Below, piece by piece: positions 34,107-46,268 of a stretch of DNA of 64,000 nucleotides. This DNA is from Rhizobium rosettiformans. GTDB taxonomy: Bacteria > Pseudomonadota > Alphaproteobacteria > Rhizobiales > Rhizobiaceae. The notes under the pieces are model-generated. The model saw only the letters and a list, made by a program, of their open reading frames with translations, was not told the origin of the DNA and ran no database searches. Each line of letters starts with the position of its first letter. Position 1 is the stretch's first letter. The stretch spans positions 1,392,001 to 1,456,000 of the forward strand of contig NZ_CP032405.1 of NCBI RefSeq assembly GCF_016806065.1, written 5' to 3'. The position numbers and the translations under genes are program-made.

Positions 34107-34169
34107 GCCTAGCTAGGCGTTCGGAGCGAACTCATACAAGTCTCTGTGCAATCAGCCCCTCGCAACCAA
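34107..34169 (-). repeat. Dispersed hairpin plus 33-bp repeat, copy 2, terminator-like
   Basis: On the minus strand the 33-bp box (34169-34137) is followed by 18 bases, a palindrome (GCCTAGCTAGGC, 34118-34107) and a run of eight or nine T, so it has the form of an intrinsic terminator for cysG. The 18-base spacer itself folds as GTTCG-CTC-CGAAC. The box encodes the last codons of the cysG frame. Copy 1 is at 6193-6261 with the same spacing between box and hairpin. Confidence 0.65.
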
Positions 34170-35259
34170 TATAACATAAATCTACCAACGATATTTCAGC
34201 AGAATGCCCAGCAATTCCCTGCACCAATTCGCATTGGATGCCGTGGCGCCGGTAGACACCGAAGTCCATCATGCCCTGTTCGGACTGACCGTCGTAGCCC
34301 GCACGAAGAAGCACAACACGTTTCCCGTTGCGCGCCATGCCGACGATGGTGTCGTGTAGGTTCACCGCACCAACTGTGTCATCCCGCGCGACGACGCTAC
34401 TGACCAGCATCCTTTTTGCTTCTCGACGGGCGAGTTCAAGAACATCCTGCGAGACGCTTTCGTCAAACAGGATGATGTCGGCAGCCTGCAGTGTCCGGAC
34501 AGCCTTGAGCGTCAGCATTTCGGCATCTCCCGGCCCTGAACCGACCAGCGCCACCGAACCGGATACTTCCATATGGCACAGCTGATCCATGTCCGTCACA
34601 ACCGCCTGCCGATCGGTCTCACCGGGCGGACGTGCCGACGAGAAGCAGCGATCGACGAAGCGCTCCCAGAAGGCCCGACGCCGCGGCCCGGGTGCGAGAT
34701 GCAGATTGACCGTGTCTCGCAGACCCTGTGCCAATGCAGCCCAGCCCTTGAGAGAGGGCGGCAGGAGCGTCTCCACGCGTCTGCGAATGGCCTGGGCGAG
34801 GATCGGAGCGGCACCGTCCGTGGAGATCGCCAGGATCACCGGTGAGCGATTGACGATCGATCCGAACTGAAACTGGCAAAAGGCCGGTTTGTCGATGACA
34901 TTGAAAGGCACGCCGGCTGCGCGCGCGGCACAGGCAAAGGCACGCGCCTCGTCATCGGTGTCGCAGTCCGCGATCGCCATGGAAGCCCCGGCGAAAACGC
35001 CGATATGCCATGGCGTATCGCGGATCGTGACCTTCTCCGCGCGTGCCAGTTCTGCCATGACGTCTCCGACTGTGCCGGCGGCTGCGAAGACTTCGACCCT
35101 TGCTCCGCAGGCAGCCAGAAGCTCCGCCTTCCAGGCCGCAGCGTCTGTTCCGCCAGCCACGAGCGCCCTCTTGCCCTGTAGGTCGAAGAACAGCGGCAGC
35201 TTGGCGAGCGGCTCGATCCGAGCGGCCGGATCACTCCGCTGCGAGGAGCGGTTGCGCAT
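34132..35259 (-). CDS. cysG: Siroheme synthase with degenerate, truncated methyltransferase domain
   Basis: Residues 1-215 are the precorrin-2 dehydrogenase/ferrochelatase part (LFFDLQGKRALVAGGTDAAA; later FQFGSIVNRSPVILAISTDG and an ALAQAIRRRVE-like helix). Residues from about 232 start a uroporphyrinogen-III methyltransferase domain (LVGSGPGDAEMLTLKAVRTL). The second SUMT motif, normally GGDPxxFGRGxEE, here reads AGYDGQSEQGMMD, and the protein stops at 375 instead of about 460-480, shortly after LVQGIAG. The final eleven residues come from the dispersed 33-bp repeat. The oxidase/chelatase half may work, but the methyltransferase half probably does not. It overlaps the nasA stop by 29 bp and is the last gene of the nitrate operon, where siroheme is needed for NirB. 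Confidence 0.8.
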   Translation of the reverse strand: MRNRSSQRSDPAARIEPLAKLPLFFDLQGKRALVAGGTDAAAWKAELLAACGARVEVFAAAGTVGDVMAELARAEKVTIRDTPWHIGVFAGASMAIADCDTDDEARAFACAARAAGVPFNVIDKPAFCQFQFGSIVNRSPVILAISTDGAAPILAQAIRRRVETLLPPSLKGWAALAQGLRDTVNLHLAPGPRRRAFWERFVDRCFSSARPPGETDRQAVVTDMDQLCHMEVSGSVALVGSGPGDAEMLTLKAVRTLQAADIILFDESVSQDVLELARREAKRMLVSSVVARDDTVGAVNLHDTIVGMARNGKRVVLLRAGYDGQSEQGMMDFGVYRRHGIQCELVQGIAGHSAEISLVDLCYIGCEGLIAQRLV

Positions 35260-37879
35260 CGAGGATCCTCCTGATTTCGGGGCGGCACGAGCCGCAATTG
35301 GTGCCGGCGGCTAGCGCGTCTCCGACAGCCTCGACGGATCGGCAGCCGTGATCAATGGCGCGGCGGATGTCATTGACGCCAACCGAGAAGCAAGCGCAGA
35401 CGATCGCGCCGCGATCGGGTCTGTTCGTTTCGGGGCGCCCCGCAACCAGCCTGCAGCGCGCGAGACGGTCACCATGATCGACATTCAACTGGTCGACAGC
35501 CCATTGCCGGGAAACCGCAACAGGCGCCCGGGAGACGAAAAGCGCGGCCAGCAGATCAGTGCCGTCAAAGGCAAGGATGCGGCTGTCACCCGACGTCGAG
35601 TCGACGTAGGCAACCATGTCGACATCTGCGCCAAGTTCGAGGCTTCTCGAAAGCCACGCCCCAAAGCCGCCATCCGGTTCGTCTCCGGCGAGCTCCAGTC
35701 GATAGCCGCCTTCAGTCTTTGCCATGGCCCAATAGGAAAACGGCAGGTTGGACGGCTTGTTGCGCGTCACCAGAAATGCGTGGAGGCGTGCCGAGTAGCG
35801 TTCAAGCAAAACACGCGCCTGTTTCAGGGCCGGCTGCCCGGAAATCGGATCGGTGAGCGACGGCACCAGGGTGTCGACGCGGGCTGCCGAGGCGGTCTCG
35901 TCGCTCCAATGCATTGGAACGAAGAGCGATCCGCGCGACTGCCGGTCGCTGAGCAAGGCCCGGACGATGACCTCTCGTCCGCCCTGGCCAGTGACACGAA
36001 CCAGGTCGGCATGCCCGACCCCATGGTCGGCGGCGTCGAATGGATGGATTTCGCAATAGGGTTCCGCCATGTGAGCGGAAAGCCGCGCACTTTTGCCGGT
36101 GCGGGTCATGGTGTGCCAATGGTCGCGCACCCGCCCGGTGTTCAGAATGAAACCGTCTTCCTGGGAGGCCACGGCCGCTTGCACGGGCGCGAACCGCGCC
36201 TTGCCATCTGGATGGTAGAAGCGACCATTGCCGAAGAAACGCTCCGGCGCCTCACCGGTTGCCGGCCGAGGCCATTGGAACGGACGAAGATCGTCATACT
36301 GATCCTCGTCGATCCCAGCGAAGGCACCGATGTCGAAATCTCTGGTGCCTTTGTTTTCAAAACTGGACAGAGCCGCGTGCTCCGCGAAGATATCGACCGG
36401 CGAAGCGAAATCGAAAGCGCGGGTAAATCCCATGCGCTTGGCGACTTCGGTAATATGCCACCAATCCGGCCTTGCCTCGCCGGGTGCGGACAGAAACGCT
36501 CGCTGGCGGGAAATGCGCCGCTCGGAATTGGTCACCGTGCCGGATTTCTCGCCCCATCCCGTCGCCGGGAGAAGGACATGCGCCAGACGCCCCGTGTCCG
36601 TATCTCCCTGCATGTCCGAGACGACGACAAAGGGACAGGCTTCGATGGCAGCCTTCACCTTGTCGGCGTCCGGCATGGAAACCACGGGATTGGTGGACAT
36701 GATCCAGAGCGCCTTGATCCGACCGTCTGCCACGGCATCGAACATGTCCACGGCCTTGAGCCCCGGGCGGTCGGCAATGCGTGGTGCCCCCCAGAAGCGC
36801 TGAACCCGATCACGGTGATCGGCATTCTCAATCGCCATGTGCGCTGCGAGCATATTGGCAAGGCCACCGACCTCCCGACCGCCCATGGCATTCGGCTGGC
36901 CGGTCAGCGAGAAAGGCCCCATCCCCGGTCGCCCGATACGCCCGGTCGCCAAATGACAGTTGATGATCGCATTGACCTTGTCGGTCCCGACCGAGGACTG
37001 ATTGACCCCCTGGCTGTAGCAGGTGACGACACGTTCCGTGTCCGCGAACAGCCAGAAGAACTGCCGGATTGACAGTCCGGAGAGGCCCGTCACCTCCGAA
37101 AGCGCAGCCATCGATTGAGGCGATGCCGCAATCAGCGCTTCGGCGAACCCTGAAGTATGTGCCCCGACAAAGGCTTCGTCGATCCGGTTGGTCTCGGCAA
37201 GATGCGCAAGCAGCCCATTGAACAGGGCGACATCTCCGTCCGGACGCACGGCAAGATGGAGATCGGCAATGTCGGAAGTCGCGGTCCGACGCGGATCGAT
37301 CACGACCACCTTCATCGTCGGCCGGGACGCCTTGGCAGCGGCGATGCGCTGGTAAAGCACCGGATGACACCAGGCGAGGTTCGACCCGACGAGAACCACC
37401 AGGTCGGCGAGCTCGAGATCCTCGTAGGTTCCGGGCACCGTATCCGATCCAAAGGCGCGGCGGTGTCCCGCAACCGAGGACGCCATGCACAGCCTGGAAT
37501 TCGTGTCGATGTTGCCGGAACCGATGAAACCCTTCATCAGCTTGTTGGCGACATAGTAGTCCTCTGTCAGCAACTGGCCGGAGACGTAAAAGGCCACCGA
37601 GTCCGGTCCATGGGAAGCGATCGTATCGCTGAAGCGCTCGACGACCAAGTCTAGTGCCGCATCCCAGCTCGACCGCTGCCCGTGTATTGTCGGGTAGAGT
37701 GCGCGTCCGTCCAGGTCCAGAGTCTCGGCCAGAGCCGATCCCTTGGAACACAATTTTCCGAAGTTCGCCGGATGCTCGGGGTCGCCCCTTACGGTAAAAA
37801 TACCCGCCTCGTCGACGCTTGCGATGACACCGCAGCCGACGCCGCAATAGGGGCACGTAGTGCGGGTTTCGCAGGCCAT
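35231..37879 (-). CDS. nasA: Assimilatory nitrate reductase, catalytic subunit
   Basis: An 882-residue molybdopterin oxidoreductase. The N-terminus carries the [4Fe-4S] site (CPYCGVGCGV, residues 9-18, and LCSKG near 46); the Mo-bis-MGD domains follow (SSVAGHRRAFGSDTVPGTYE, GVNQSSVGTDKVNAI, TGQPNAMGGREVGG). The C-terminus has an extra BFD-like [2Fe-2S] domain (IVCACFSVGVNDIRRAI, GTNCGSCRPEIRRIL), as in NasA-type enzymes that take electrons from NADH- or ferredoxin-linked partners. It reduces nitrate to nitrite in the cytoplasm. ATG 37879 (MACETRTT) is used; a frame extension to 37972 overlaps nirD. It starts 4 bp after the nirD stop. Confidence 0.96.
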   Translation of the reverse strand: MACETRTTCPYCGVGCGVIASVDEAGIFTVRGDPEHPANFGKLCSKGSALAETLDLDGRALYPTIHGQRSSWDAALDLVVERFSDTIASHGPDSVAFYVSGQLLTEDYYVANKLMKGFIGSGNIDTNSRLCMASSVAGHRRAFGSDTVPGTYEDLELADLVVLVGSNLAWCHPVLYQRIAAAKASRPTMKVVVIDPRRTATSDIADLHLAVRPDGDVALFNGLLAHLAETNRIDEAFVGAHTSGFAEALIAASPQSMAALSEVTGLSGLSIRQFFWLFADTERVVTCYSQGVNQSSVGTDKVNAIINCHLATGRIGRPGMGPFSLTGQPNAMGGREVGGLANMLAAHMAIENADHRDRVQRFWGAPRIADRPGLKAVDMFDAVADGRIKALWIMSTNPVVSMPDADKVKAAIEACPFVVVSDMQGDTDTGRLAHVLLPATGWGEKSGTVTNSERRISRQRAFLSAPGEARPDWWHITEVAKRMGFTRAFDFASPVDIFAEHAALSSFENKGTRDFDIGAFAGIDEDQYDDLRPFQWPRPATGEAPERFFGNGRFYHPDGKARFAPVQAAVASQEDGFILNTGRVRDHWHTMTRTGKSARLSAHMAEPYCEIHPFDAADHGVGHADLVRVTGQGGREVIVRALLSDRQSRGSLFVPMHWSDETASAARVDTLVPSLTDPISGQPALKQARVLLERYSARLHAFLVTRNKPSNLPFSYWAMAKTEGGYRLELAGDEPDGGFGAWLSRSLELGADVDMVAYVDSTSGDSRILAFDGTDLLAALFVSRAPVAVSRQWAVDQLNVDHGDRLARCRLVAGRPETNRPDRGAIVCACFSVGVNDIRRAIDHGCRSVEAVGDALAAGTNCGSCRPEIRRILDAQPLLAAE

Positions 37880-37883
37880 GGGT

Positions 37884-38213
37884 TCACTCCGCCGCCACAA
37901 GGACGCTCTCAAGCGCGATCGATAGCTGGCCATCGATATTGCGGATCGGAATGGTGCGCACTGCACCTTCATCGGCCCCGAGTGCCTTACCCGTCTCCAG
38001 CGAGATGACCCAGTTGTGCAAAGGGCAGGTGACGGAAGCGCCGTGCACGATTCCTTGCGTCAGGGGACCGCCCTTGTGGGGGCAATGGTCCTCGATCGCA
38101 TAAACCTCATTCTCGGCGGTACGAAACACGCCGATCTTGCCCTGCGGGGTCTTCACGCAACGGGCACCGCGCAGGGGGATATCATTGATCGTGCCGATGG
38201 CGATCCAGTTCAT
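37884..38213 (-). CDS. nirD: Nitrite reductase small subunit with Rieske ligands
   Basis: A 109-residue NirD protein. It keeps the four Rieske [2Fe-2S] ligands: C44 and H46 in DHCPHKGG, and C63 and H66 in TCPLHNW; enterobacterial NirD has lost these, so this subunit may carry electrons. It pairs with NirB in NADH-dependent nitrite reduction to ammonium. The start at 38213 follows a GGAGCATG-like ribosome binding site; the upstream 142-bp gap to nirB holds a RIME repeat. The stop is 4 bp before nasA. Confidence 0.93.
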   Translation of the reverse strand: MNWIAIGTINDIPLRGARCVKTPQGKIGVFRTAENEVYAIEDHCPHKGGPLTQGIVHGASVTCPLHNWVISLETGKALGADEGAVRTIPIRNIDGQLSIALESVLVAAE

Positions 38214-38240
38214 GGGGCATGCTCCTTGTTGTTCAACATT

Positions 38241-38355
38241 CACCCTCCCCTTGAGGGGGAGGGTCGGACCGAAGGTCCGGGGTGGGGTGATAAGCTGCAA
38301 TGATCGATCACCCCACCCGCGCGTTCCGCGCGACCTCCCCCTCAAGGGGAGGTGT
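38241..38355. repeat. RIME-type palindromic mosaic repeat between nirB and nirD
   Basis: About 115 bp composed of nested inverted repeats: ACCCTCCCC / GGGGAGGGT at the left, CGGACC-GAA-GGTCCG, GTGGGGTGAT / ATCACCCCAC spanning the middle, CGCGCG / CGCGCG, and ACCTCCCC / GGGGAGGT at the right. The ends also pair with each other. Composition and layout match the rhizobial intergenic mosaic elements (RIME). It abuts the nirB stop codon (38356) and lies inside the nas operon transcript, where it would form a stable RNA structure. Confidence 0.85.
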
Positions 38356-40809
38356 TCACTCCGCTGCCGCTGAAAATCCGACGGTAGCCATGGGCTTGAA
38401 CTCGTGTTTGTCCTTGCCGGAGACACGCTCCGACCACGGGTCGACCTGGGCGAACTTCTGAGAGAACACGAAGCGCTCGTAATAGGCGCGCCGCTTGTCA
38501 TGGTCCTCCATGATCTGGCGGCGGATCTCGTCATGGCCGATGCGTTTCGCCCATTTGTAGATCCGCTCGAGATAGCGGCCCTGCTCGCGATACATCTGGG
38601 TGAGCGCCACGATATGCTCCAGCGCCTCGTCCTCGGTCTTCACCTGACCCAGGACATCGGTGCCCTTGATGTCGAGGCCGGCGGCGCCCGCGAAGTGGAT
38701 CTCGAAACCAGAGTCGACGCAGATCACGCCGATATCCTTGCAGGTCGCCTCCGCGCAGTTGCGCGGACAGCCAGAGACGGCGAGCTTGAGTTTGGCGGGC
38801 GTCCAGGAGCCCCACATGAACTTCTCGAGACGAATGCCAAGCCCGGTCGAATCCTGCGTGCCGAAGCGACACCAGTCCGAGCCGACGCAGGTCTTCACGG
38901 TTCTGAGGCCCTTGGCATAGGCCTGGCCGGAGACAAAGCCGGCCTTGCCGAGATCGGCCCAGACGGCGGGCAGGTCTTCCTTCTCGATGCCGAGTAGATC
39001 GATGCGCTGGCCGCCGGTCACCTTCACCATCGGGATCTCGAACTTGTCGACGACATCGGCAATCGCGCGCAGTTCGGCAGAATTGGTCACGCCGCCCCAC
39101 ATGCGCGGCACAACGGAATAGGTGCCGTCCTTCTGGATGTTGGCGTGCACACGCTCATTGATGAACCGCGACTGGTAGTCATCGGCATATTCATCCGGCC
39201 AGTCTGAGACGAGATAATAATTGAGTGCTGGTCGGCATTTGGCGCAGCCGCAGGAGGTCTTCCATTCCAGTTCCTGCATCACGGCCGGGATCGTTTTTAA
39301 TCCCTTGGCCTTGATCAGACGACGGACATCGTCATGGCCAAGCTCGGTGCAACTGCACATGGGCGTGACAGCGGCTGGGTTGTAGGCATCCCCAAGGGTC
39401 AGGGACATCAGCTGCTCGACGAGACCCGTGCAGTTGCCGCAGGAGGCGGATGCCTTGGTATGCGCCCTGACGCCGTCCAGCGTCGTCAACCCCTTGCCCG
39501 TAATGGCGCCCGTGATCTTGCCCTTGCAGACGCCGTTGCAGCCGCAGATTTCCGCATCATCCGGCAAGGCTGCAACGGCCGCCATAGGGTCCAGCGGAGA
39601 CCCTCCCTGATAGGACTGGCCAAAAATCAGTGTCTCCCGCATGGCGGAGATATCGGTCTGCTTCTTCAGGAGATCGAAGAACCACGAGCCGTCGGCTGTT
39701 TCGCCGTAGAGAACCGCGCCGATGATCCGGTTGTCCTTCAGCACCAGACGCTTGTAGACGCCTGCACTTGCATCGCGCAGCACGATTTCCTCTCGATCGG
39801 GCGCCTCGGCGAAGTCGCCGGCCGAGAACAGGTTGATGCCGGTGACCTTGAGCTTCGTATTGACCACCGAACCCTGATACTCGGCATTCCCGCCGGTCAG
39901 GCGATCCGCGAGAACGCGGGCGCTTTCGTAAAGCGGCGCAACGAGGCCATAGCAGACCCCGCGATGTTCGGCGCATTCCCCGAGTGAGTAAATCGAGGCA
40001 TCCGAGGTCATCATGCCGTCATCGACCACAATGCCCCTGTTGACCGCGAGCCCCGCATCCTTGGCAAGCTGGGATGCCGGACGGATGCCGACTGCCATGA
40101 TCACCATGTCGCCGGAAATCACCCTGCCGTCTTCGAGTTCAACCCCTTCTACCCTGTCGCTGCCGAGGATCTGTTTCGTATTCGCCTTGGTGATGATCTC
40201 GATGCCGCGCTCCGCGAGCGCCTTTTCGAGGAGGTAGGCGGCAGCCGGATCGAGCTGGCGTTCCATGATCGTCGGCATCAGGTGGATGACGGTCACCTCC
40301 ATCCCCTGACGCTTCAGGCCATAGGCCGCTTCGAGCCCGAGAAGACCTCCGCCGATGACGATTGCCCGTCCCTTGGCCTTGGCGATTTCCAGCATCTTCT
40401 CGACATCGTCGAGATCGCGATAGGCAAGAACGCCGGGTAATTGATGGCCGGGTACCGGGATGATGAAAGGCAAAGATCCCGTCGCTATGACCAGCTTGTC
40501 ATAGGAGACCGTAATCCCGTTTGCCGATGTCACCGTCTTTGTCTGCCGGTCGATCTCGGTGACCTTGGCGCCCTTGTGCAGCGTCACGCCATGCGCCGCA
40601 TACCAGGCGTCATCGTGGATGACGATATCCTCATAGGCCTTCTCGCCCGAGAGCACCGGTGAGAGCATGATACGGTCGTAATTGACCCGTGGCTCGGCAT
40701 TGAAGATCGTCACGTCGTAGAGGCCGGGCGCTCTTTCGAACAGTTCTTCCAGCATGCGGCCGGGCGCCATGCCATTGCCGATAATGACCAGTTTCTCTGC
40801 CATTGACAT
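38356..40809 (-). CDS. nirB: NADH-dependent assimilatory nitrite reductase, large subunit
   Basis: An 817-residue NirB. N-terminal FAD/NAD(P) domains (KLVIIGNGMAPGRMLEEL; GRAIVIGGGLLGLEAAYGL near 145), then two BFD-like [2Fe-2S] regions (ICGCNGVCKGKI, ASCGNCTGLVE around residues 420-470; CSCTELGHDDVRRLI and CGCAKCRPALNYYL to 545), then the ferredoxin-like and siroheme/[4Fe-4S] domains with KTCVGSDWCRFGTQDS (about residue 640) and SGCPRNCAEA (about 680). It makes ammonium from nitrite by six-electron reduction. The ATG at 40809 overlaps the nrtD stop by one base (TGATG); a second ATG two codons later is also possible. Confidence 0.97.
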   Translation of the reverse strand: MSMAEKLVIIGNGMAPGRMLEELFERAPGLYDVTIFNAEPRVNYDRIMLSPVLSGEKAYEDIVIHDDAWYAAHGVTLHKGAKVTEIDRQTKTVTSANGITVSYDKLVIATGSLPFIIPVPGHQLPGVLAYRDLDDVEKMLEIAKAKGRAIVIGGGLLGLEAAYGLKRQGMEVTVIHLMPTIMERQLDPAAAYLLEKALAERGIEIITKANTKQILGSDRVEGVELEDGRVISGDMVIMAVGIRPASQLAKDAGLAVNRGIVVDDGMMTSDASIYSLGECAEHRGVCYGLVAPLYESARVLADRLTGGNAEYQGSVVNTKLKVTGINLFSAGDFAEAPDREEIVLRDASAGVYKRLVLKDNRIIGAVLYGETADGSWFFDLLKKQTDISAMRETLIFGQSYQGGSPLDPMAAVAALPDDAEICGCNGVCKGKITGAITGKGLTTLDGVRAHTKASASCGNCTGLVEQLMSLTLGDAYNPAAVTPMCSCTELGHDDVRRLIKAKGLKTIPAVMQELEWKTSCGCAKCRPALNYYLVSDWPDEYADDYQSRFINERVHANIQKDGTYSVVPRMWGGVTNSAELRAIADVVDKFEIPMVKVTGGQRIDLLGIEKEDLPAVWADLGKAGFVSGQAYAKGLRTVKTCVGSDWCRFGTQDSTGLGIRLEKFMWGSWTPAKLKLAVSGCPRNCAEATCKDIGVICVDSGFEIHFAGAAGLDIKGTDVLGQVKTEDEALEHIVALTQMYREQGRYLERIYKWAKRIGHDEIRRQIMEDHDKRRAYYERFVFSQKFAQVDPWSERVSGKDKHEFKPMATVGFSAAAE

Positions 40810-41606
40810 CACTCCGCAGCTTCCACGAAGCGATGGCGCTCGTAGAGGAATTTCAATACGGCCTCGCGGCACTTGAGATAGGTCCGGTCGGAGGCAAGCT
40901 CGATCCGATTCCGGGGACGTGCGATCGGCACCTCCAGGATCTCGCCGATCCGGGCAGCCGGTCCGTTGGTCATCATCACGATCCGGTCGGAGAGCAGCAC
41001 CGCCTCGTCGACATCATGCGTGATCATGATCATCGTATTGCCGAGCCGGCCATGGATCTCCATGACCGCATCCTGCAGATGCGCGCGCGTCAGGGCGTCG
41101 AGCGCACCGAAGGGCTCGTCGAGCAGCAGCACCTTGGGCTCCATCGACAGGGCACGGGCAATGCCGACACGTTGCTTCATGCCCCCGGAGATTTCGGCCG
41201 GCCGCTTGTCCTTGGCATGTGCCATCTGCACCAGGTCGAGATTGTGCATGACCCAGTCATGCTTTTCAGCCTTCGTCTTGCGTCCGGAGAACACCTTGGA
41301 AACAGCCAGATTGACGTTCTCGTAAACGGTGAGCCAGGGCAGCAGCGAATGGTTCTGGAAGACCACGGCACGGTCTGGCCCCGGGGCGTTGACCTCCAGG
41401 TTTTCAAGGAGAACTGCACCTGCGCTTACCCGCGTAAGCCCGGCAATGAGATTGAGCAGCGTCGACTTTCCGCAGCCGGAATGGCCGATGATCGAGACGA
41501 ATTCGCCCTTGTCGATAGTAAGCGTGATGTCCTTCAGAACCTCGGTGCGGACCCCGCCACGCTCGAAGCTTTTGTCGATGTGGTCGATCTTGAGATAGCT
41601 GGACAT
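40809..41606 (-). CDS. nrtD: Nitrate ABC transporter ATPase
   Basis: A 265-residue ATPase of the NrtD/SsuB/TauB type: Walker A GHSGCGKST, Q-loop VVFQNHSLLPWLTVYENV, signature ISGGMKQRVGIARAL, Walker B VLLLDEPFGALD, and MIMITHDVDEAVLLSDRI. Only one ATPase gene is present and it lacks the sensory C-terminal domain of cyanobacterial NrtC, so it presumably works as a homodimer. ATG 41606 is chosen; the frame extension to 41684 overlaps nrtB. Import of nitrate is unidirectional and ATP-dependent. Confidence 0.95.
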   Translation of the reverse strand: MSSYLKIDHIDKSFERGGVRTEVLKDITLTIDKGEFVSIIGHSGCGKSTLLNLIAGLTRVSAGAVLLENLEVNAPGPDRAVVFQNHSLLPWLTVYENVNLAVSKVFSGRKTKAEKHDWVMHNLDLVQMAHAKDKRPAEISGGMKQRVGIARALSMEPKVLLLDEPFGALDALTRAHLQDAVMEIHGRLGNTMIMITHDVDEAVLLSDRIVMMTNGPAARIGEILEVPIARPRNRIELASDRTYLKCREAVLKFLYERHRFVEAAE

Positions 41607-41619
41607 GATGGCGTCCCCC

Positions 41620-42516
41620 TCAGTTCTTGGCTGTGCCACGGGTGACGACGCTGCCGAGCAGGGCGACGAGCTTGTCGAGGACAAAGCCGGTCACGCCGAT
41701 ATAGACGAGCGCCACGATGATGTCGGAGAGGCGCGAGGAATTCCACGCATCCCAGATGAAGAAGCCGATACCGACGCCGCCGGTGAGCATTTCGGCTGCA
41801 ACGATGGCGAGCCAAGAGAGGCCGACGCCGATCCTGAGGCCGGTGAAGATGTATGGCGCTGCAGCCGGCACCATGATCCGCACGAAGAATTCCAGCGGAT
41901 TGAGGCGCAAGACGCGGGCGATGTTGCGATAGTCATCGGGAATGTTGCGCACGCCGACCGCGGTGTTGATGATGACAGGCCAGATCGACGTGATGAAGAT
42001 AACGAAAATCGCGGAGGGATTGCTGTCCTGAAAGGCCGCAAGCGAGAGCGGCAGCCAGGCGAGCGGTGGTACGGTGCGCAGGATCTGGAAGATCGGATCA
42101 AGGCCACGCATGGCCCAGATGGACTGCCCGACGACGGCACCGAGGAAGACGCCGACCACGGCGGCAAGGCCAAAGCCCATGGCGACACGTTCCAGCGATG
42201 TCAAAACCCGCCAGGCGAGCCCGATATCCTGCGAGCCGTATTCGAAGAATGGGTAGGCGATCAGATCGTAACTGTCGGCCCAGACCTGGGAAGGCGACGG
42301 CAATGTCGCGCCGGGCTGCGAACAGGCGATCTGCCAGATGGTGAGAAGCACCAGCGTGACCACGAGCGGGGGCAGTATATTGCGCAAGACATCGGCGCCG
42401 GCCCGCTTCAGATCGATTTTCGGCGTCGCGCGCCTGGCCAGGTGAACGACGGTTCCGGTCCGGTCCGGGGAGACGGCGATCGCCTCTGTCTCTGCTTTTC
42501 GGGCGGTTGCGGGCAT
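41620..42516 (-). CDS. nrtB: Nitrate ABC transporter permease
   Basis: A 298-residue permease with a 45-residue cytoplasmic N-terminus and six helices (ILPPLVVTLVLLTIWQIACS is helix 1). The EAA loop is IPDDYRNIARVLRLNPLEFF (around residues 185-204), followed by the family stretch PYIFTGLRIGVGLSWLAIVA. The start at 42516 follows nrtA by 88 bp; that gap contains the inverted repeat AAGGCCCTGCG / CGCAGGGCCTT (about 42564-42593), probably a processing or partial-termination hairpin that keeps the binding protein in excess. Confidence 0.94.
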   Translation of the reverse strand: MPATARKAETEAIAVSPDRTGTVVHLARRATPKIDLKRAGADVLRNILPPLVVTLVLLTIWQIACSQPGATLPSPSQVWADSYDLIAYPFFEYGSQDIGLAWRVLTSLERVAMGFGLAAVVGVFLGAVVGQSIWAMRGLDPIFQILRTVPPLAWLPLSLAAFQDSNPSAIFVIFITSIWPVIINTAVGVRNIPDDYRNIARVLRLNPLEFFVRIMVPAAAPYIFTGLRIGVGLSWLAIVAAEMLTGGVGIGFFIWDAWNSSRLSDIIVALVYIGVTGFVLDKLVALLGSVVTRGTAKN

Positions 42517-42604
42517 GTGTTTTTCCTCTGCGCGTGTCGAAAGGGAGTTGTTCTTGCCTCCGAAGGCCCTGCGAGTACCGCAGGGCCTTCGGAAATGGCG
42601 CGCG

Positions 42605-43903
42605 TCAGGCGCTCGCCTTGATGGCGAGGCTGTCGAGATAAGCCTGCGGATTGTCGGGGTCGAAGACCTTGCCGTCGAAGAAGGTTTCCGGACCACGCGA
42701 GGCGGAGGACGGAATGTCGGCAGCTGCGACGCCGAGTTCCTTGGCGGCCTCGCGCCAGATGTCCTCGCGGTTCACCTTGTCGATGAGCGCCTTGATGTCG
42801 GTGTCGGGCGCGAACTTGCCCCAGCGGACATTCTCGGTGAGGAACCAGGCGTCGTGGCTCTTGAACGGATAGGAGGCATGATCCTTCCAGAACTTCATCT
42901 CAAGCCCGGAGTTCTCGACCACGCGGCCGTTGCCGTAGTTGATCGTGCCTCTCAGGCGACCCACAACGTCCTTCGGCGGAACGTTGAACCATTGCCGCTT
43001 GCCGAGAATGTCGGACATCTCGTCCTTGTTATCCATGCTGTCGGCCCACATCTGGGCTTCCATCACGGCCATGAGAAGTGCCTTCGCGGCAATGGGGTTC
43101 TGTTCCACCCAGTCGGAGCGGAGGCCGAGCGCCTTTTCGGGATGCCCCTTCCAGAGTTCGCCGGTCGTACAGGCGGTGAAGCCGATATCCTGGTTGACCA
43201 GCTGCTCGTTCCAGGGCTCGCCCACACAGAAGGCATCCATGTTGCCGACCTTCATGTTGGCGACCATCTGCGGCGGGGGAACGACGATCGTCGACACGTC
43301 CTTGTCCGGGTCGATGCCGCCGGCGGCCAGCCAGTAGCGAATCCAGAGGTCGTGTGTGCCGCCCGGGAAGGTCATGGCCACCTTCACCTCGCCGCCGGCC
43401 GCCTTCTTGGCGGCAAAGACATCCCGCAGCTTGGATGCGTCGAGGCCGACGCCAGTCTCGGCATATTCCTTGGCGACCGAAATGCCCTGGCTGTCGAGGT
43501 TGAGGCGCGCGAGGATAGACATCGGCACCGGCACATTGTTCTGCGTCACCTTGCCGGCCGAGATCAGGTAGGGCATCGGGGTGAGAATATGCGCACCGTC
43601 GATCCCGTTCGAAGCGCCGCCGAGCACCAGATTGTCGCGGGTGGCACCCCAGGACGCCTGCTTCAGCACTTCGACCTCGGGCAGGCCGAACTTAGCGAAC
43701 AGCCCCTTTTCCTGGGCGATCACCAACGGTGCGGCATCGGTCAGCGCGATGAAGCCGAGCTTCGCCCCCTTCACCTCCGGCCCGGAGCCAGCCGCAAAGG
43801 CACCGAATGGAAAGGCCAGCTTCGCGGCACTGACGACGGCAGCTGCCGATGTAAGCTTCAGAAGCTGGCGGCGGGTGGTGCTCATTCCTGTAGTCTTCGT
43901 CAT
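42605..43903 (-). CDS. nrtA: Nitrate ABC transporter binding protein
   Basis: A 432-residue NrtA/CmpA-type periplasmic protein with a twin-arginine signal (STTRRQLLKLTSAAAVVSAA). Ligand-site stretches include LGFIALTDAAPLVIAQEKGL, VAMTFPGGTHDLWIRYWLAAGG (about residue 175) and DAFCVGEPWNEQLV. It is the first gene of the nas operon after the antitermination leader; the ATG at 43903 lies 40 bp beyond the end of the terminator's T-tract. It resembles NasS closely, except that NasS lacks a signal peptide. Confidence 0.95.
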   Translation of the reverse strand: MTKTTGMSTTRRQLLKLTSAAAVVSAAKLAFPFGAFAAGSGPEVKGAKLGFIALTDAAPLVIAQEKGLFAKFGLPEVEVLKQASWGATRDNLVLGGASNGIDGAHILTPMPYLISAGKVTQNNVPVPMSILARLNLDSQGISVAKEYAETGVGLDASKLRDVFAAKKAAGGEVKVAMTFPGGTHDLWIRYWLAAGGIDPDKDVSTIVVPPPQMVANMKVGNMDAFCVGEPWNEQLVNQDIGFTACTTGELWKGHPEKALGLRSDWVEQNPIAAKALLMAVMEAQMWADSMDNKDEMSDILGKRQWFNVPPKDVVGRLRGTINYGNGRVVENSGLEMKFWKDHASYPFKSHDAWFLTENVRWGKFAPDTDIKALIDKVNREDIWREAAKELGVAAADIPSSASRGPETFFDGKVFDPDNPQAYLDSLAIKASA

Positions 43904-43942
43904 TTTTTGTGCCCCTCTGGTGTGACGGAGATCCGGAAAAAC

Positions 43943-44007
43943 AAAAAAACGCCGCTCGGTGACTGCATCTGCGGGATCGAAGGATCCCGTGTGCAAACCA
44001 AGCGACG
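43943..44007 (-). terminator. Regulated intrinsic terminator in the nas leader
   Basis: On the minus strand the 11-base arms at 44007-43997 and 43960-43950 (CGTCGCTTGGT / ACCGAGCGGCG, two G-T pairs) enclose a TGCA/TGCA pair and an inner hairpin CGGGATC-CTTC-GATCCCG, and are followed at once by seven T. It lies upstream of nrtA and downstream of two small hairpins, so it would stop transcription unless antiterminated by NasT. Confidence 0.88.
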
Positions 44008-44021
44008 TCGGTGTCTCTGGT

Positions 44022-44064
44022 GAGCGCGCTTCAGGCGCTCTTTCGTCCGGTCGCCGTTGACCGG
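44022..44064 (-). promoter_or_regulatory. Two-hairpin ANTAR (NasT) recognition element
   Basis: Read on the minus strand, hairpin P1 is CCGGTC-AACGGC-GACCGG (44064-44047): a 6-bp stem with a hexaloop having A at position 1 and G at position 4, the hallmark of ANTAR-protein target RNAs. Hairpin P2 is GAGCGC-CTGAAGC-GCGCTC (44040-44022), a 6-bp stem with a seven-base loop. They are separated by six bases and followed 14 bases later by the intrinsic terminator. The inference is that free NasT binds here to allow read-through. Confidence 0.8.
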
Positions 44065-44079
44065 ATGTTTTTCAAGGAA

Positions 44080-44095
44080 GCAAAGGCCGTGCCAA
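44080..44095 (-). promoter_or_regulatory. Sigma-54 promoter of the nas operon
   Basis: The minus strand reads TTGGCACGGCCTTTGC, matching the sigma-54 consensus TGGCAC-N5-TTGC with GG and GC exactly 10 bases apart. Transcription would begin about 12 bases after the GC, near 44068, just in front of hairpin P1. This predicts a leader of about 165 bases before nrtA and control by an NtrC-like activator under nitrogen limitation. Confidence 0.85.
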
Positions 44096-44193
44096 TTTCA
44101 ATGGGAAGGCCCAAGTTGCTGAATTCAAATTGGAAAAATCTCTGCGGCCACGACTACGCCTGTACAAGACAATGGATGACCGGGGTTCAAAAT

Positions 44194-44209
44194 TTGTGCA
44201 ACTGCACAA
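44194..44209. promoter_or_regulatory. Palindrome upstream of the nas sigma-54 promoter
   Basis: TTGTGCA-AC-TGCACAA is a near-perfect 16-bp dyad about 100-115 bp upstream of the sigma-54 promoter, the usual distance for an enhancer site. It contains the TGCAC half-site seen in NtrC boxes, but the half-sites are closer than the typical NtrC arrangement, so the bound protein is uncertain. Confidence 0.45.
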
Positions 44210-44247: not shown

Positions 44248-45531
44248 TCAGTCGTCCGTGGCCATTGACGGCCGCTTCGCCCCGGAACGGACCTCGAAAC
44301 CAGAGACATAGTCGGTCATTCGATTGGGGTCGAAAATCCGTCCATCCATGAAACGGTCATCTTCCAAACTGCCTGGCAGAGGGGATGCATCGTCTGGCAT
44401 TTGGGCTCCGGATCCGAGTGCTGCGCGATAGAGGTCGGCGCGGTAGGCGCTCTTCGCCCGCTTCAGATTGTCGGCGCTGTGATCGACCTGCCCCCACCGG
44501 ATCATCTGGCTATAGATCCAGAGCGCCTGATTGACCTGCGGAAAGTTCGCCGCGTGGCGATGGAAAACGAAGTAATCGCGGATCAGTCGACGATTGCCTT
44601 GGGCATCCAGGCTGAACTCGCCGGCCAGGACGCGGCGAATGATGTCCCGTGATGCGGTGATGTAGCGAGGGGAGGCCAGCATCTCGGAAAGATGATCATG
44701 ATTGTCAGGCTGGTCACACCAGCGGGCGGCCTTGTCGAGCGCCACGATCAGCCGGCCGACCGTATCGGCGTTGGCTTCCGCCCAATCCGGCCGCATGCCG
44801 ACCACCTTCTCCGGCGCAGAGGGCCAGATATCCTGCTTGGCCGCGACGATCCGACCGACACCTCGTTCGGAAGCAACCATGTTCCAGGGCGCACCGACAC
44901 AAAAGCCGTCGATCGCTCCGGCAGCCAGCGCATCGGAGGTGAGGGGTGGCGGCACGACAACGAGCTTCACATCACGATCCGGATCGACGCCGCCAGCGGC
45001 CAGCCAGTAGCGGAACTCGTAATTGTGTGACGAGAAAGGATAGGTCATGCCGAGGGTCGGAGGCTGCTCGCCGTTCTGCCGCATGTCCTGCAGCACGCTC
45101 GCTAACGCTCTTGCCAGTTGAAGCGCGCTCGCATCCTCTGCCAGATCGGCGCGCACCTTCATCCGTTCGAAGAGGCGCAGTGACAACGTGATCGCATTGC
45201 CACCGCGGCCCAGAGAAAAAGGGGTGATCGTCGGGGAGGGATTGGAGCCGAGCTCCAGCATCGAGGCAACCGGCATGGGCGATAGCATATGGGCGATGTC
45301 GAACTGCCGGAAAGCCAGGCGATCACGGACATTGGCCCAGGAGACATCGCGCACGAGGTCGAGTGTCAGTCCTTCCTTGTCGGCAAATCCCATCTCCGCA
45401 GCCGCGACCAGGATCGAGGCATCCATCAGCGGAATGAAGCCGGCACGCAGGATACGCTGCTCCCGCCCGGACACATGAACCGCCGGAGCGCCTGGATCGA
45501 TGTTTCGCTGCCTGCTCATCATATCGCTCAC
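44248..45531 (-). CDS. nasS: Nitrate/nitrite sensor NasS (NrtA-like, cytoplasmic)
   Basis: A 427-residue protein homologous to NrtA (LRAGFIPLMDASILVAAAEM; LGMTYPFSSHNYEFRYWLAA; IDGFCVGAPWNMVASERGVG) but without a signal peptide, so it stays in the cytoplasm. NasS binds NasT and releases it when nitrate or nitrite binds, letting NasT antiterminate the nas leader. It is encoded 24 bp after nasT and directly before the leader. The start is GTG at 45531; ATG codons 3 and 4 codons downstream are alternatives. Confidence 0.93.
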   Translation of the reverse strand: MSDMMSRQRNIDPGAPAVHVSGREQRILRAGFIPLMDASILVAAAEMGFADKEGLTLDLVRDVSWANVRDRLAFRQFDIAHMLSPMPVASMLELGSNPSPTITPFSLGRGGNAITLSLRLFERMKVRADLAEDASALQLARALASVLQDMRQNGEQPPTLGMTYPFSSHNYEFRYWLAAGGVDPDRDVKLVVVPPPLTSDALAAGAIDGFCVGAPWNMVASERGVGRIVAAKQDIWPSAPEKVVGMRPDWAEANADTVGRLIVALDKAARWCDQPDNHDHLSEMLASPRYITASRDIIRRVLAGEFSLDAQGNRRLIRDYFVFHRHAANFPQVNQALWIYSQMIRWGQVDHSADNLKRAKSAYRADLYRAALGSGAQMPDDASPLPGSLEDDRFMDGRIFDPNRMTDYVSGFEVRSGAKRPSMATDD

Positions 45532-45555: not shown

Positions 45556-46143
45556 TCACAGCAGCAATCCCGCAGCGGTCACTACGCTCTGGGCTATGTC
45601 GACCAGTTTCTTTTTCTCGTTCATGGCGGTTTGACGCATGAGCGCGAAGGCTTCCTCCTCGCTCATGCCGCGCATCTTCATCAGGATGCCCTTGGCGCGC
45701 TCAATGACCTTGCGCTCCTCGAGCGCGTTCTTCGCTTCGGCCAGTTCGCGTTGCAGACGGCTGAACGCGTTGAAGCGGCTGACCGCCATATCGAGGATCG
45801 GCTTCACCCGTTCCTTGCGCAACCCATCGACGATATAGGCCGAGACGCCGGCATCCACGGCGGCCTCGATGGAGGCGCTGTCTGAGCGATCGACGAACAT
45901 GGCGATCGGCCTGCTGACCGAGCGGGTGAGCTGGAAGAGATGCTCCATCATGTCACGGTTCGGGTTCTCGATATCGATGATGATGACGTCAGGCGCCAGC
46001 GTCTCCACCGTCTTGGCAATTCCCTGTACCCCGAGAGCGACGGTCACGTGCCGGTGACCTGCCTCGCGCAAACCGTCCTCGATGATCGCTGCGCGAACAG
46101 CGTTTTCATCGATCACAAGGATGGTGAGGTCGAGATGGTTCAT
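45556..46143 (-). CDS. nasT: Nitrate-responsive antiterminator NasT (ANTAR protein)
   Basis: A 195-residue response-regulator-like protein. Residues 1-120 form a receiver-type domain (LTILVIDENAVRAAIIEDGL; VIIIDIENPNRD) and residues 130-190 are the ANTAR RNA-binding domain (VIERAKGILMKMRGMSEEEA then FALMRQTAM). The start at 46143 is used; a frame extension to 46209 has no homology. It is first in the nasT-nasS pair. Its RNA target is almost certainly the two-hairpin element at 44022-44064, so this locus regulates itself in cis. Confidence 0.94.
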   Translation of the reverse strand: MNHLDLTILVIDENAVRAAIIEDGLREAGHRHVTVALGVQGIAKTVETLAPDVIIIDIENPNRDMMEHLFQLTRSVSRPIAMFVDRSDSASIEAAVDAGVSAYIVDGLRKERVKPILDMAVSRFNAFSRLQRELAEAKNALEERKVIERAKGILMKMRGMSEEEAFALMRQTAMNEKKKLVDIAQSVVTAAGLLL

Positions 46144-46268
46144 GTGCGATTGATGACGCAATGCAACAAAGTTGGCAAGCTTGGGGCCTAAATTTTGAGC
46201 TTGCTGCAATGGAAACTATTTTTTGAGCAGATTGGCCCGCCGTCCTCACCAGTGACGCAGAAAAACGA

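Follow-up and report, generated by a model that had tools for sequence, protein, structure and literature searches.

A three-hairpin leader, very probably under NasT antitermination control, precedes the nitrate assimilation operon of Rhizobium rosettiformans

Introduction

Which hairpins of its leader RNA would a NasT protein read before transcription can pass into the nitrate assimilation operon of Rhizobium rosettiformans? The question is raised by a 64,000-nt stretch of contig NZ_CP032405.1 (hereafter the window; all positions below are counted within it unless another contig or locus is named), where the 122 nt at 43943–44064, between nasS and nrtA, had been read in an original prediction as a complete NasT-type antitermination switch. 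That prediction drew the two RNA sites as a hairpin with an A1/G4 hexaloop and a second small hairpin whose loop had seven bases instead of six, followed by a long terminator.

Antitermination of the NasT type is already known. In the presence of nitrate, the NasS-NasT complex of Paracoccus denitrificans dissociates and NasT binds to the leader RNA of nasA (PMC3795266); hairpin HI of this leader is needed in vivo, and mutation of HII altered little (PMC5424462). Other NasT-controlled nas leaders are named in the literature for Azotobacter, Pseudomonas, and Bradyrhizobium, and the narK and bjgb leaders of Bradyrhizobium carry predicted NasT hairpins (PMC6759348). For ANTAR-protein targets, Ramesh et al. 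locate the second hairpin at the terminator's 5' base and give its six-base loop A1 and G4 (PMC3369931), and a linker of 2–25 nt between the two hairpins has been used as a criterion (PMC8164766). The loop G4 is the base that is flipped out and read by EutV (PMC8934654).

Results

On the minus strand, the gene order is nasT, nasS, leader, nrtA, nrtB, nrtC, nirB, nirD, nitrate reductase, and a siroheme-synthase-like gene; nasT and nasS thus adjoin the leader on one side and nitrate-assimilation genes lie downstream. The nasT gene (45556–46209) encodes a response-regulator-like protein with an ANTAR domain (PF03861, 77.2 bits; PF00072, 36.3 bits), presumed to be an RNA-binding antiterminator, while nasS (44248–45531) encodes a nitrate/nitrite-sensor-like binding protein of the periplasmic type (PF13379 NMT1_2, 235.5 bits). 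The first controlled gene would be nrtA (42605–43903; PF13379, 346.7 bits, scored on the longer reading 42605–43996), for which an ATG start at 43903 is preferred over the TTG at 43996 given in the mechanical list of open reading frames, because GAGGGG lies just 5' of the ATG. The rest of the operon spans 34132–42696, where nrtB and nrtC were named by Pfam and NCBIfam, nirB by Pfam, the assimilatory (molybdenum) nitrate reductase by NCBIfam from best matches under their cut-offs, and nirD and the siroheme-synthase-like gene by eye from their translations.

Comparative material came from a single-protein search, from which we took the best 80 of 549 confirmed NasT loci, mostly from Rhizobium or near genera, and from 100 further NasT regions. 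Of these, 20 represent the same family, where 72 genomes had a strong NasT match; 60 represent other families of the order, in which 134 of 297 genomes had a match (the 134 include some same-family genomes); and 20 represent the class, with matches in 37 of 289 genomes. A nasS match directly 3' of nasT was present in all 181 loci (80, 100, and the window), which had been selected for NasT. Together with the ANTAR domain match, this bears out the earlier claim that NasT and its sensor NasS are encoded immediately upstream of the leader.

The window's NasT aligns with EutV (6wsh/6ww6) at E = 2e-19. Of EutV, residues R168, M172, N173, R175, and R177 are given as RNA contacts in PMC8934654; they correspond, by eye, to R192, M196, N197, K199, and K201 of NasT, so that all are kept, two as K for R. 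In the receiver domain (residues ~30–132), an Asp occupies the position of EutV's conserved Lys (AYIVDG vs. YLVKPL), which fits control by release from NasS rather than by phosphorylation. The nasT reading frame opens with TTG (5' end at 46209–46140) and many relatives align only from residue ~12–29; the ATG at residue 23 may therefore be the true start. The only other ANTAR match of the genome is a 203-residue AmiR-like protein (L002; G000 contig C2, 1441–3125), which adjoins an AmiC-like binding protein and a permease; the names were assigned by eye.

Upstream of the leader, TGGCACGGCCTTTGC (44080–44094, minus strand) matches the sigma54 −24/−12 pattern TGGCACN5TTGC exactly and is the sole match without mismatch within the 64-kb window; this promoter had been missed in the original prediction. 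The usual geometry of sigma54 promoters sets the distance to the start site, which here predicts a transcript start at ~44068, three bases 5' of the first hairpin, and would thus place that hairpin at the extreme 5' end of the RNA. A looser −24/−12 pattern was matched upstream of all 79 aligned leaders, compared with 5 of 1580 mononucleotide-shuffled upstream stretches, and the first G of its GG lies 35 nt (69 leaders), 34 nt (7), or 36 nt (3) from the loop of hairpin 1. With a promoter upstream at a near-fixed distance, a transcript start 3' of the hairpins, the objection raised alongside the original prediction, is unlikely.

Between nasS and the promoter lies a palindrome, TTGTGCAGTTGCACAA (44194–44209, minus strand). 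Its form TTGTGC-N-GCACAA was considered as an activator site and set aside because no more than 8 of the 181 loci, that of the window among them, have it, and no activator site is claimed. GCAC-N5-8-GTGC occurred upstream of the leaders in 22 of 181 loci and the Paracoccus NtrC consensus in none of the 181.

The leader RNA, likewise read from the minus strand, can be drawn with three hairpins and a terminator. Hairpin 1 (P1; 44046–44065) has a 7-bp stem and the hexaloop AACGGC with A1 and G4, just as predicted, and is the putative first ANTAR site. Hairpin 2, in the linker (44022–44040), has the 6-bp stem GAGCGC/GCGCUC and the seven-base loop CUGAAGC. Hairpin 3 (44004–44015), GAC-ACCGAC-GUC, had been overlooked; its hexaloop again has A1 and G4, and we consider it the true P2, the putative second ANTAR site and antiterminator. 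The intrinsic terminator hairpin found by folding (43950–44009) has the 11-bp outer stem originally described, plus two further pairs into the U tract, and the seven U at 43943–43949 can be read directly. Hairpins 1 and 3 therefore form a pair of hairpins of at least 3 bp with six-base A1/G4 loops, as described for ANTAR targets, whereas hairpins 1 and 2, the pair first proposed, do not. The description of the locus as a complete NasT-type switch is well supported as a whole, with its second ANTAR site misplaced: the small second hairpin exists where it was drawn, outside the terminator, and the puzzle of a seven-base loop disappears because the real second hexaloop, with six bases, is that of hairpin 3. 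Counted plainly, the linker between hairpins 1 and 3 is 30 nt, beyond the 2–25 nt criterion; with hairpin 2 folded, ~11 nt are left unpaired.

Folding of the 122-nt stretch gives −58.1 kcal/mol (z = −5.26), an energy below that of any of 200 dinucleotide shuffles. G4 of the hairpin 3 loop is the first base of the terminator's 5' arm, which also takes up the 3' strand of hairpin 3, and the two structures are mutually exclusive by fold prediction, as described for the second hairpin of ANTAR targets. On its own, hairpin 3 reaches only −0.7 kcal/mol and is therefore weak without protein. In stepwise folding over 16 lengths, it was part of the minimum-energy structure at 12; it was missing at length 96 and at the final three lengths (124, 128, and 132), where its loss coincided with the presence of the terminator's 3' arm. 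Forcing hairpin 3 into the fold costs 5 kcal/mol (−54.5 vs. −59.5).

To follow the element among relatives, we used two covariance models, R1, built from 31 leaders including that of the window, and R2, built from 21 leaders excluding the window and its closest relatives (L033–L038). R1 scored 70 bits in the window and R2 63.2 bits at 44067–44002 (E = 3.8e-11 against its entire 5.1-Mb genome, where the second-best site reached 20.3 bits). R1 found the element downstream of nasT-nasS in 78 of the best 80 of 549 loci, in addition to the window; in the two that it missed (L101 and L103), a hairpin-1-like A1/G4 hexaloop is visible behind the promoter. A search of the whole 64-kb window against Rfam at gathering cut-offs gave no match.

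The 79 leaders were aligned to R1 (alignment A2; 74 distinct rows), and a second alignment was made without structure (A1); both lean towards the structure, since R1 itself requires hairpin 2. In A2, the loop of hairpin 1 carries A1 and G4 in 79 of 79 leaders, and at the position of hairpin 3, 74 of the 79 show a six-base loop, which carries G4 in all 74 and A1 in 71; every exception belongs to the Rhizobium leguminosarum-like group. In hairpin 2, the loop has seven bases in 59 of the 79 and is, as aligned, an A1/G4 hexaloop in none of them, for which reason, and because it stands outside the terminator, we rejected hairpin 2 as the ANTAR P2. As a reservation, an alternative 3-bp hairpin with an A1/G4 hexaloop can be drawn within the linkers of L070 and L097.

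Among the 74 distinct rows of A2, 88.7% of cells pair, compared with 16%–40% when slid. Changes on both sides of a pair were seen at 4 of 7 pairs in hairpin 1, 6 of 7 in hairpin 2, and 1 of 3 in hairpin 3 (11 of 17 in total), and in A1 at 5 of 7 pairs in each of hairpins 1 and 2. The covariation score of A2 was 0.244, compared with 0.140 ± 0.007 in shuffles (none of 500 reached it) and no more than 0.071 after sliding, and that of A1 was 0.277 compared with 0.149, bearing in mind that such shuffle controls can be inflated by kinship among sequences. Counts in A1 and in alignment A4 are lower because MAFFT displaced hairpin 2 of the window in A1, by a column or two, and hairpin 1 in some rows of A4. 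Hairpin 3 yields little covariation within a class since its stem pairs are near-invariant there, differing between classes as GAC/GUC and GGC/GCC. The compensatory changes that had been proposed as a check were thus found, with both controls passed and the support coming from hairpins 1 and 2; in A1 and A2 alike, the stems of these two hairpins are conserved and covary, so that the refuting outcome named with the original prediction, unconserved stems or a lack of covariation, did not occur. The linkers themselves also fold: 67 distinct ones had a mean energy of −10.60 kcal/mol compared with −6.33 (sd 0.27) in dinucleotide-shuffled sets, 0 of 200 of which were as low, and 42 of the 67 reached p ≤ 0.05 individually. 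These linkers stem from R1 matches, and R1 requires hairpin 2, although the set is little selected because R1 took in 78 of 80 loci.

Several loci stand apart. In R. leguminosarum-like genomes, hairpins 1 and 2 are kept and hairpin 3 has decayed, and a tandem arrangement occurs in which a second, compact hexaloop pair lies downstream, before narK (L066, L088, L099, L100, L103, L111, L112, and others, at ~8.1–8.35 kb). L094 and L170, from Pleomorphomonas in another family of the order, encode a NasT 82%–84% identical to that of the window and have a window-type leader, which looks like a transfer of the nas cluster. A contig labeled as an Arenimonas MAG (L093) carries a Rhizobiaceae-type nasT locus, perhaps through a binning error.

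Below its gathering score (43.2 bits), the independently built Rfam family narK RNA (RF03032) matches the leader site of the window at 33.6 bits (E = 2.8e-4 genome-wide), yet this is the best match of its genome, the next reaching 19.2 bits. Owing to the score, we did not file the window's leader as a member. The two are alike in a sigma54-like 5' part and a hairpin with an AACGGC hexaloop, followed in narK RNA by the A1/G4 hexaloop hairpin CGAC-AAAGAC-GUCG; in contrast, RF03032 pairs hairpin 1 only, leaves P2 unpaired, and has no hairpin 2. In a phylum-wide sample, RF03032 was matched in 22 of 398 genomes, 16 of them over the cut-off. Among 29 narK loci (the window's own excluded), hairpin 1 has A1/G4 in 25, the hairpin 3 hexaloop is present in 24, and both are present in 20. 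Hairpin 3 overlaps a terminator in 23 of the 29 and was not found in five (L117 and L137–L140), and the linker is 3–22 nt long, with at most 13 nt in 18 of 20 loci. We infer from these features that narK RNA is a two-hairpin NasT leader. On one stretch of DNA (L131:1488–1605), narK RNA (36.5 bits) coincides with P11 (RF00625; 36.3 bits), both under gathering, and P11 also matches the window weakly at 44106–44023 (15.1 bits). P11, familiar from worm-behavior work, may be the terminated leader of a NasT switch.

Across the wider set of NasT loci, a detector requiring a hexaloop hairpin, hairpin 3, and an overlapping terminator found a leader within 700 nt after nasS in 132 of 181 loci, compared with 1 of 543 Markov-shuffled regions. 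By this detector, no leader right after nasS was found in 49 of 181 loci, or in 44 once R1 hits were added. R1 itself finds 7 of the 100 further NasT regions; many of the others have a compact layout. Among 55 compact loci, including the tandem group, a promoter match lay 48–66 nt upstream of the hexaloop in 21, and the pattern used gave no match in 27. The 18 distinct leaders among the 21 have a first hairpin behind the promoter, its loop 31–35 nt from the GG in 15 of the 18, close to the place of hairpin 1 in the window type. In these leaders, the hexaloop hairpin comes next, typically GCGUCC-AAnGnn-GGGCGC, followed after 0–6 nt by hairpin 3, GGC-AAnGnn-GCC, in the terminator. With all three helices drawn, 91.0% of cells pair in these 18 leaders compared with 30%–51% when slid, and all 5 pairs of the first hairpin show changes on both sides. 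This hairpin can also be drawn as an A1/G4 hexaloop in L163, L168, L179, L180, L183, L189, L229, and L243.

Anchoring the leaders on the promoter gave a table of 104 of the 181 loci, in which at least 14 rows are misplaced: the hexaloop stood on hairpin 1 only in 59, on both hairpins in 11 (three of them tandem), on hairpin 2 only in 11, on hairpin 1 with no hairpin 2 called in 10, and on neither in 9 and 4. By eye, the errors arose where a hairpin overlapping hairpin 1 had been chosen (L087, L052, L058, L060, and L067), where a mismatch follows the third pair of hairpin 1 (L152 and L155), where hairpin 2 had been mistaken for hairpin 3 (L160 and L162), and where a bulged or mismatched hairpin 2 had been overlooked (L092, L095, L074, L077, and L083); the layout is ambiguous in L193, L209, L230, and L245. 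Hairpin 3 lies 70–89 nt from the GG in nearly all three-hairpin forms, 118 nt in the tandem ones, and 57–60 nt in four two-hairpin forms (L202, L203, L222, and L223). Many NasT leaders share a three-hairpin scaffold, with the promoter-proximal hexaloop on hairpin 1, on hairpin 2, or on both.

Five layouts, under our own labels, were placed on a NasT tree of 62 loci, in which the window-type and tandem loci of the best-80 set were thinned to a third; the layouts required 14 changes, compared with 25.9 when shuffled and a least possible number of 4. Near relatives can differ in layout, as do L162 and L183 (support 98/87), and layouts thus appear to be partly inherited and to have changed several times. 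Taken by themselves, the triple and tandem labels do not cluster on this tree, which has several long branches and parts that are unsure.

Discussion

Taken together, these results make it very probable that the leader of the window is a NasT-controlled antitermination leader driven by a sigma54 promoter. RNA polymerase would start near 44068, leaving hairpin 1 at the very front of the RNA. Without nitrate, NasS would hold NasT, the three-pair hairpin 3 would lose to the strong terminator, and transcription would end at 43943–43949. With nitrate, freed NasT would bind the A1/G4 hexaloops of hairpins 1 and 3, and hairpin 3, held in this way, would keep the terminator from forming, allowing nrtABC-nirBD-nitrate reductase to be made.

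In this scheme, hairpin 2 would fold the 30-nt linker down to ~11 unpaired nucleotides and so bring the ANTAR sites to the spacing of leaders that lack it. We lean slightly towards such a folded spacer, because the unpaired remainder with hairpin 2 folded (4–8 nt plus mostly 4–5 nt) agrees with the mostly 3–13 nt of leaders without hairpin 2. Counter to this role, one leader (L236) has a linker of 28–31 nt with only a weak hairpin. Against the NasT reading as a whole stand the plain linker count of 30 nt, longer than the 2–25 nt criterion (PMC8164766), and the finding that 20 extra nucleotides abolish antitermination by EutV (PMC8934654), together with the little covariation in the stem of hairpin 3 within the class and the 49 of 181 loci in which the detector gave no leader right after nasS. 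On a broader claim, we put the chances at about even: that NasT leaders of Alphaproteobacteria have in common a scaffold of three hairpins, standing at near-fixed places behind sigma54 promoters, with an ANTAR hexaloop on hairpin 3 in the terminator, that the partner hexaloop has moved repeatedly between hairpin 1 (window type), hairpin 2 (compact type), and both (triple type), and that whichever hairpin lacks it serves as spacer; as part of the same joint claim, the linker hairpin of the window would be the counterpart of an ANTAR site elsewhere.

The pairing first proposed, in which NasT reads hairpin 1 and the seven-base loop of hairpin 2 with hairpin 3 irrelevant, draws some strength from other lineages, where an A1/G4 hexaloop is indeed found on the second hairpin, which partners hairpin 3 across a short gap, so that this position can in itself be an ANTAR site, and from the alternative hexaloops of L070 and L097. 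Among the aligned relatives of the window, however, the loop of hairpin 2 varies freely and never takes that form, while hairpin 3 retains its A1/G4 loop; moreover, binding at hairpin 2 would block nothing by itself because this hairpin lies outside the terminator. We regard this pairing as highly unlikely. An equally slight chance is left to a constitutive attenuator, in which a sigma54 promoter and terminator are joined to hairpins 1 and 2 as protection for the RNA and nitrate control lies elsewhere. The terminator is indeed strong, and it would also separate the nasTS transcript from the operon, but near-invariant A1/G4 loops on two hairpins, together with covariation, are unexpected for a plain terminator, and NasT is encoded next door in the loci examined (which were selected for NasT).

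Somewhat less improbable, though still unlikely, is a main role of the terminated leader as a small RNA in its own right, as a NasT sponge or in trans, instead of as a switch in cis. P11 has been described as a regulator of a nitrogen assimilation operon in Pseudomonas aeruginosa (PMC12080996), and its match to the same DNA as narK RNA at L131, with the weak one in the window, points in this direction. Against it, the element precedes nrtA or narK in 83 of 86 R1 loci, which fits control in cis; the two roles could also coexist. The cis-acting NasT switch, with its sites on hairpins 1 and 3, is the reading that we carry forward.

Among the closest known systems are the NasT-dependent nas leaders such as that of P. 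denitrificans nasA, in which nasT-nasS are likewise followed by a hairpin-bearing leader and nitrate-assimilation genes. The P. denitrificans leader is described with two hairpins, HI and HII (PMC5424462), compared with three here. In the leader of the window, the two putative ANTAR sites are separated by a hairpin that is not of the ANTAR type, and the sigma54 promoter lies upstream at a distance that hardly varies among relatives. Similarly, the eut RNAs of Enterococcus faecalis read by EutV carry a pair of A1/G4 hexaloops; their second hairpin lies within the terminator's 5' base, and it and the terminator exclude each other (PMC3369931, PMC8934654); their linker is short, whereas that of the window has 30 nt and holds a hairpin, and release from NasS is assumed here in place of phosphorylation. 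Klebsiella NasR also binds, on nitrate, a two-hairpin A1/G4 RNA, that of nasF (PMC7496416). NasR, however, is a one-component NIT-ANTAR sensor, while in the window NasS is a separate sensor protein.

In the literature accessible to us, we found neither a NasT leader with three hairpins described nor a hexaloop that changes its place among them. The corrected position of the second site allows mutants to be placed correctly, and the element offers a direct hypothesis for Rhizobiaceae. The natural series of leaders, with two hairpins or with three and the site on the first, the second, or both, could show how the two sites serve an ANTAR dimer and what distance between them is tolerated, the EutV dimer being unable to hold both sites at once according to structural work (PMC8934654). 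Our results also suggest a function for the narK RNA family, and perhaps for P11.

R1 was also matched elsewhere in the order. Hits of at most 33.4 bits were taken as chance, as the seven examined (L267, L269–L272, L274, and L282) had no sigma54 match and several lay inside open reading frames. Four others, away from nasT (L258, L262, L263, and L264, near position 1500), scored 41.8–73 bits, all with a sigma54 promoter, and three of them precede NrtA-like genes, judged by eye; on these features, the four are likely NasT targets in trans. One genome (G399) has such a distant match beside a narK-type leader next to nasT.
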